A DNA stretch of 64,000 bases from NCBI GenBank assembly GCA_944324905.1, contig CALUYB010000006.1:1-64000 (forward strand), written 5' to 3'. Made by a program: the position numbers and the translations under genes. Under the pieces are notes generated by a model. That model was given only the letters and a program-made list of their open reading frames with translations. It ran no database searches and had not been told where the DNA came from. Positions 114 to 347 of this stretch are shown here, piece after piece. Every line of letters begins with the position of its first letter. Position 1 is the stretch's first letter. Source of the stretch: Candidatus Gastranaerophilales bacterium. GTDB taxonomy: Bacteria > Cyanobacteriota > Vampirovibrionia > Gastranaerophilales > Gastranaerophilaceae.

Positions 114-186
114 TGGGCGTTGAGAGGCTCGAACTCCCGACATCTTCCTTGTAAGGGAAGCGCTCTACCAACTGAGCTAAACGCCC
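114..186 (-). tRNA. tRNA-Val (anticodon UAC)
   Basis: Read on the minus strand, the sequence folds as a full 73-nt cloverleaf. The acceptor stem is GGGCGTT/AACGCCC, the D-arm contains TAGCTCAGTTGGTAGAGC, the anticodon stem is CTTCC/GGAAG with loop CTTACAA, and the T-arm contains GTTCGAGCC. The anticodon is TAC, which reads valine codons. The discriminator base is A, and the 3' CCA is not encoded (the next bases are TTT). Its upstream region is unusual and contains a copy of its own 5' part. Confidence 0.95.
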
Positions 187-214
187 TAATATATTCAATT
201 TTCAATCTTTTTTG

Positions 215-229
215 TTAGCTCAGTTGGTA
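215..229 (-). other. 15-nt antisense match to the tRNA-Val D-arm in its leader
   Basis: TTAGCTCAGTTGGTA on the plus strand at 215-229 is the exact reverse complement of 166-180, the acceptor/D-arm part of tRNA-Val, and of 13 nt of the partial copy at 258-270. In a minus-strand leader transcript this segment could pair with the upstream partial copy or with the real tRNA, but not both. Any regulatory role is inference. Confidence 0.5.
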
Positions 230-257
230 TGAATTGTGCAAAAGCACTTTGGCTTCG

Positions 258-295
258 CCAACTGAGCTAAACGCCCTAATATATTCAATTTTCAA
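258..295 (-). repeat. partial duplicate of tRNA-Val 5' end and upstream flank
   Basis: This 38-nt stretch is identical to 168-205. It covers 19 nt of the tRNA-Val 5' end (acceptor strand plus half the D-arm) and 19 nt of the leader immediately before it. The copy breaks off inside the D-loop, so it cannot make a tRNA. Between the two copies lie two small hairpins (GTGC-AAAA-GCAC at 236-247 and TTGGC-TTC-GCCAA at 249-261). Confidence 0.85.
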
Positions 296-319
296 GCGAG
301 TTCCTGACTCGCAATATCT

Positions 320-347
320 ATAATACTTGCTCAAAAACTTCTGTCAA
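320..347 (-). promoter_or_regulatory. sigma70-type promoter for tRNA-Val
   Basis: On the minus strand a perfect -35 TTGACA (342-347) is followed after 16 nt by -10 TATTAT (320-325). Transcription would begin near 313, just at a 6-bp hairpin GCGAGT/ACTCGC (296-312), and run through the partial tRNA copy into tRNA-Val. It lies immediately downstream of the end of the ABC exporter gene. Confidence 0.7.

Follow-up and report, generated by a model that had tools for sequence, protein, structure and literature searches.

Architecture of the tRNA-Val leader

The window, by which we mean the whole 64-kb stretch of DNA analysed, comes from a Candidatus Gastranaerophilales genome, and its start coincides with the edge of the contig. 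Close to that edge an intact tRNA-Val gene is preceded by an ordered series of elements, given here 5' to 3' along the minus strand.

320-347, minus strand: sigma-70-type promoter TTGACA-16-TATTAT (TTGACA 347-342, TATTAT 325-320), with 11 of 12 consensus matches
296-312, minus strand: 6-bp hairpin GCGAGT-CAGGA-ACTCGC, directly 5' of the first boxA-like motif
282-295, minus strand: boxA-like motif TTGAAAATTGAATA, first copy, 14 nt, identical to a 14-mer in the 16S rRNA leaders of relatives G040 and G045
258-276, minus strand: decoy, a copy of tRNA-Val nucleotides 1-19 (direct repeat)
249-261, minus strand: hairpin TTGGC-GAA-GCCAA, its 5' arm overlapping the end of the decoy
236-247, minus strand: hairpin GTGC-TTTT-GCAC
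215-229, minus strand: 15-nt antisense TACCAACTGAGCTAA to tRNA-Val nucleotides 7-21, with no equally good match in 100 shuffles
192-205, minus strand: boxA-like motif, second copy, adjoining the real tRNA
114-186, minus strand: tRNA-Val(tac), intact, with the antisense target at 180-166

The elements described in the initial annotation are all present. These are the promoter and the 6-bp hairpin (312-296); the copy of the first 19 nt of the tRNA with its 19-nt upstream flank, which together make a 38-bp perfect direct repeat (168-205 and 258-295); the exact 15-nt antisense, an inverted repeat (229-215 and 180-166); and the 13-nt complementarity between the antisense and the false copy, likewise an inverted repeat. 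The two copies of the duplicated segment, 5' end plus upstream flank, are separated by 52 nt. The antisense scores 15, compared with a maximum of 9 in 100 dinucleotide shuffles. In the hairpin preceding the first boxA-like motif the arms of relatives differ yet still pair (GCAAG/CTTGC and CAAGC/GCTTG, by eye). Between antisense and tRNA, a scan of positions 1-600 of the window found no sigma-70-like promoter. The tRNA genes for Arg (40857) and Thr (40971), the two others in the window, are without the unit.

Leaders at other tRNA genes

Each tRNA locus was scored by the best ungapped antisense match between the 130 nt upstream and tRNA nucleotides 1-42, with 100 dinucleotide shuffles and the other tRNAs of the same genome as controls. 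In the genome that contains the window (G000), for which the set is complete, the antisense exceeds all 100 shuffles at 16 of 34 loci, and Pro-tgg and Met are borderline cases beyond these. The same holds for 11 of 30 loci in G005 and 7 of 32 in G388, which probably belongs to another genus (g49) and has six more loci scoring 8-12, values reached by between one and seven shuffles. No locus exceeded all its shuffles in G020 (0/31), G045 (0/32), G046 (0/30) or G057 (0/30), 0 of 123 altogether. These comparisons cover 30 tRNA matches per genome (from 34 in G005, 43 in G045, 43 in G020, 37 in G046, 42 in G057 and 38 in G388), with neighbouring tRNAs on the same loci added to the counts.

At most antisense-positive loci there are upstream copies of the gene's own tRNA of at least 8 nt, and at 13 of the 18 G000 loci with a score of at least 8 the leader fits its own tRNA better than any other tRNA of the genome. 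The antisense is directed at parts of tRNA nucleotides ~7-34. G000 and G005 differ in which tRNAs bear a leader. No anticodon occurs twice among the 34 loci of G000, and thus no second gene was found for any tRNA whose gene has a leader.

Some other upstream features were seen along the way. A second class of leader insert, with a shared hairpin about GACUAAAUGUC whose arms are A-rich and U-rich (L067, L308, L310, L311), occurs in G000 and G388, at loci of Met/Ile2-like, Pro, Ala-GGC and initiator-like Met tRNAs. Upstream of tRNA-Tyr (L058/L084) lies a 287-bp repeat that begins with a copy of the first 14 nt of the tRNA and holds a long, internally repeated insert. By eye, loci of different tRNAs (L299, L301, L309, L306 and L307) share AGAUUA-like letters a short way 5' of the antisense; a hairpin that contains tandem G-A mismatches is often common to them too.

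Taxonomic distribution

Genome contigs of 84,980 species, one genome per species, were searched with a DNA pattern combining an antisense and a downstream D-arm. This retrieved 40 loci, 35 read as Gastranaerophilales and five from other phyla. The strict form of the pattern, which detects only tRNAs with the TAGCTCAGTTGG D-arm, was found within the order in 28 of 383 sampled genomes and 7 of 52 genera, one of them (G039) in another family. The members sampled from large genera, g7, g8, g42 and g46 among them, gave no match, and neither did a scan of viral contigs.

The five matches beyond the order, excluded from its folding counts, come from two Desulfovibrio, one Saccharibacteria, Algoriphagus and a member of the Bacteriovoracaceae. 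Units of decoy and antisense that look complete precede tRNA-Thr in Algoriphagus (L124) and tRNA-His in Bacteriovoracaceae (L126). In the two Desulfovibrio (L094, L101) an antisense of 12 nt lies 29 nt upstream of tRNA-His with no decoy, and the Saccharibacteria genome also has an antisense without a decoy. Contig ends at tRNA loci were considered as proof of long arrays and rejected, because several tRNAs also lie close to contig starts in G046, which has no leaders.

The boundary motif and rRNA leaders

Units usually include the motif that adjoins the real tRNA in the window, beginning 14-28 nt upstream of the tRNA. Counted with at most two mismatches within 60 nt of the tRNA, a test that gives 1.5% with shuffles, it is present in G000 at 16 of 18 antisense-positive loci versus 2 of 16 others; one of these two is Tyr, with its own decoy-bearing repeat. 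The association is weaker in G005 (11/12 versus 7/18) and G388 (7/13 versus 5/19). Counts in the leaderless genomes are 2/32 (G045), 5/31 (G020), 2/30 (G046) and 0/30 (G057).

In the two relatives where an rRNA operon was found, G040 and G045, the identical 14-mer lies 138-139 nt upstream of a conserved segment near the start of 16S rRNA. There it adjoins a second, similar copy that is itself 3' of a hairpin. The 14-mer occurs in 0 of 2000 shuffled leaders of L283. The motif is therefore common to the tRNA leaders and the rRNA leader of the lineage, as for an rRNA-type boxA antiterminator, on the evidence of relatives' operons: the 16S model found no rRNA in G000 itself, G005, G007 or G014. 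The name boxA, and use of the motif by Nus factors in this lineage, are presumptive.

The rRNA leader antitermination element, a boxB hairpin plus boxA acted on by a Nus complex, resembles the present arrangement in having a hairpin followed by TTGAAAATTGAATA. It differs in that the motif here stands before single tRNA genes, in tandem, beside a tRNA-specific antisense and decoy. BoxA of E. coli is reported to be bound by NusB and NusE (PMC4807359). A word search for tRNA in a paper on Nus factor targets found no mention (PMC5725501).

Predicted folding

For the Val leader of the window alone, the lowest-energy fold pairs decoy and antisense over 13 bp, in place of the hairpin at 249-261. The initial annotation held that the antisense can pair with the false copy or with the real tRNA but not with both, and folding indeed predicts mutually exclusive states.

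Minimum free energy (MFE) folding of the last 105 nt of leader plus the tRNA separates the two kinds of locus. Among antisense-positive loci the real acceptor stem is predicted for 0/16 in G000, 0/11 in G005 and 1/11 in G388, and the 3' strand of the tRNA pairs instead with the leader, mostly the decoy, in 14/16, 11/11 and 8/11, respectively. The real acceptor stem is predicted for 15/17, 13/18 and 14/18 antisense-negative loci of the same genomes, and in the leaderless genomes for 21/31 (G020), 28/32 (G045), 25/30 (G046) and 19/30 (G057). The mean energy gain in G000 is -10.3 kcal/mol, versus -1.3 with swapped tRNAs. A further set of 43 loci from pattern and similarity searches, each with an antisense of at least 11 and at least 80 nt upstream, gave no real acceptor stem and 39 decoy acceptor stems. 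The tRNA-Phe of G388, with an antisense and no decoy in the last 130 nt, folds normally.

Folding at successive nascent lengths predicts that the antisense duplex appears after 16-34 nt of tRNA at most loci; two Met(cat) loci never form it and Ile loci hold it unsteadily. Ensemble calculations covered 64 distinct units in which decoy and antisense each score at least 9, the real acceptor being counted at P>0.5. It was formed in 0/64 intact units, in 61/64 cut after the antisense, in 4/64 cut after the decoy and in 3/64 with the antisense omitted. Decoy or antisense alone thus mostly holds the lock, and losing both frees the tRNA. All these folds are equilibrium predictions for RNA free of proteins, modifications and tertiary contacts, and the lock is in part a trivial outcome of carrying both a copy and an antisense.

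Conservation and covariation

The Val unit is present in 12 of 14 same-genus genomes, a contig end cutting it in G001 and G004. Only a remnant survives in G002 (L041), a natural deletion within the genus, and the Val locus was not found in G012. Several of these genomes have two or three tandem Val units at ~91-bp spacing, nearly identical within a locus, and duplication evidently takes part in array growth. The decoy of relatives usually reads CTCACTTGG and the tRNA CTCAGTTGG, so that antisense and decoy share ~8 uninterrupted base pairs, compared with 15 for antisense and real tRNA.

Conservation of the pairing in close relatives, through compensatory changes, had been put forward as a check on the leader; the leader is kept across the genus, but compensatory change is weak. 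In nine Val units, cut out with an expression that demands the antisense, 98.1% of cells are paired and one pair of 18 is altered at both positions (UA to CG in three sequences). The covariation score was reached by 3 of 500 shuffles but exceeded by a slid control, and we regard this covariation as no more than suggestive. RNAalifold gave no consensus fold for 15 Phe units, whose variable middle MAFFT probably misaligns.

Between G000 and G005, in the Val, Phe, Pro, Gly and Ile leaders (Met being excluded as misaligned), changes number 2/64 in the antisense, 1/80 in the decoy, 4/70 in the boundary motif and 18/236 elsewhere; for the antisense the direction appears right, on few sites. Where the Phe acceptor differs between genera, the nearest decoy tracks its tRNA (L322, L323, L324), which concerted evolution could equally explain, and in L325 and L326 the antisense is kept and the acceptor part of the decoy lost. 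That the antisense never varies in the Phe, Met and Asp sets was rejected as evidence of selection because these loci were fetched and cut out by patterns demanding the antisense.

Comparison with known families and systems

No Rfam 15 family covers the leader. In 20 loci, the matches above gathering score were tRNA and one AdoCbl-II riboswitch elsewhere in L087 (2788-2856), downstream of tRNA-Leu(caa), and the remaining listed matches all fell below their gathering scores. With E-values of up to 5 the same loci showed no T-box and no group I or group II intron family. The T-box riboswitch is a leader RNA that switches through pairing with a tRNA, and the likeness lies in that dependence. The present leader, however, is predicted to pair in cis with its own nascent tRNA, as an antisense to the 5' half, and the T-box was rejected on the lack of a match to its covariance model, which comprises stem I, specifier and antiterminator. 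Group I and group II introns in the tRNA were rejected likewise, there being no covariance match and the contiguous tRNA being intact. Integrative elements that target tRNA genes duplicate the 3' part of the tRNA, as the attachment site, and lie between the copies; such an element was rejected here since the duplicated part is the 5' end with its upstream flank and 52 nt intervene. The rtT repeats after E. coli tyrT, which carry tRNA 3' fragments, are similar in being tandem and in containing part of the neighbouring tRNA, but they involve the 3' end and lie downstream, whereas the present units involve the 5' end, lie upstream, carry an antisense and occur at many tRNA genes.

There is also a likeness to the 16S leader-trailer helix, which joins sequences flanking the mature RNA (PMC10250234). 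Both are precursor pairings outside the mature RNA that bear on maturation, but the pairing predicted here blocks the mature fold. Literature searches, in part narrow and hence weak evidence of absence, found no description of such leaders.

A putative folding gate and its alternatives

Our best reading is that the unit may be a cis-acting tRNA leader of a new kind, acting as a gate on folding or maturation. More specifically, it may hold its downstream tRNA in a locked, non-native fold, a proposal whose chances we consider evenly balanced. The folding predictions suggest that the 5' half of the nascent tRNA would pair with the antisense once ~16-34 nt of tRNA have emerged, and that the acceptor strand of the emerging 3' half would then pair with the decoy. 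The locked product would have a tRNA-like shape with a large D-loop insert and with the real 5' end buried; tandem units would supply extra locks. Release might come about when the leader is cut between antisense and tRNA, where it is A/U-rich, or, alternatively, when a Nus complex bound to boxA remodels the RNA. In either case the output of tRNA would depend on release, and perhaps also on rRNA synthesis. The most economical mechanism would be a gate on folding that opens when the stretch between antisense and tRNA is cut or remodelled. The fuller proposition, that the precursors of about half of the tRNA genes are born locked and that unlocking is coupled to ribosome synthesis through the boxA-like motif, is tentative and, as we see it, rather unlikely.

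The initial annotation had offered two origins for the arrangement, debris of a duplication-inversion or a control element for tRNA folding or processing. The latter is favoured, and debris may hold for the origin. As a full explanation, debris would mean that tRNA 5' ends of this lineage are prone to tandem duplication and template switching, leaving arrays of direct and inverted copies that recombination maintains and that have no function. The Val copy number of one to three, the concerted evolution apparent in near-identical units within a locus, the different tRNAs affected in G000 and G005 and the loss of the unit in G002 would all fit. Yet a single plan of decoy, hairpins, antisense and boundary motif recurs at many tRNA sequences in several genera, the antisense remains matched to its own tRNA, and a lock without function would be expected to do harm where a tRNA has a single gene. 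We consider functionless debris unlikely. We favour a functional cis-acting leader because the units are matched to their tRNAs at many loci, stand in a conserved neighbourhood with an rRNA-leader motif and show an on/off distribution.

It is quite improbable that the unit is a small mobile element that targets tRNA 5' ends and restores the gene with the first ~14 nt, which it brings along. The patchiness over genera and tRNA genes, and the related insert hairpins at different tRNAs in G000 and G388 (the GACUAAAUGUC class), are what such an element might leave. However, when G000 was searched with the window locus the six matches listed were all on tRNA genes, and antisense and decoy are specific to each tRNA, so that no constant element moves. 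More doubtful again is a sensor acting in trans, in which the antisense binds 5' halves of tRNAs of the same kind, or unfolded tRNA, and so raises or lowers transcription of the gene. The targets, within nucleotides ~7-34, do fall inside a 5' tRNA half, but the antisense has its cis target next to it on one and the same RNA, and nothing in the Val leader resembles a terminator apart from a hairpin of 5 pairs whose T tail is weak. A D-loop intron, with the decoy as true 5' exon and the stretch to about nucleotide 14 of the contiguous tRNA spliced out, would account for the resemblance of the predicted locked fold to a tRNA with a D-loop insert and for the complementarity of the Val antisense across the would-be exon junction, but is hardly credible given the intact contiguous tRNA, decoys that diverge (CTCAC, GTTAGCC, GCGCACG) and range from ~10 to 19 nt, and the lack of a matching Rfam intron family.

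Transfer RNA genes are usually seen as simple, steadily expressed units. If sole genes produce precursors that prefer another fold, the question is raised of where functional tRNA-Phe, -Asp and -Val come from. A self-capturing leader at many tRNA genes, absent in neighbours, would mean that tRNA supply can be set at folding, gene by gene. If the fuller proposition of locked precursors and coupled unlocking holds, these bacteria would have genome-wide post-transcriptional control of the tRNA pool, through a riboregulator class new to science.
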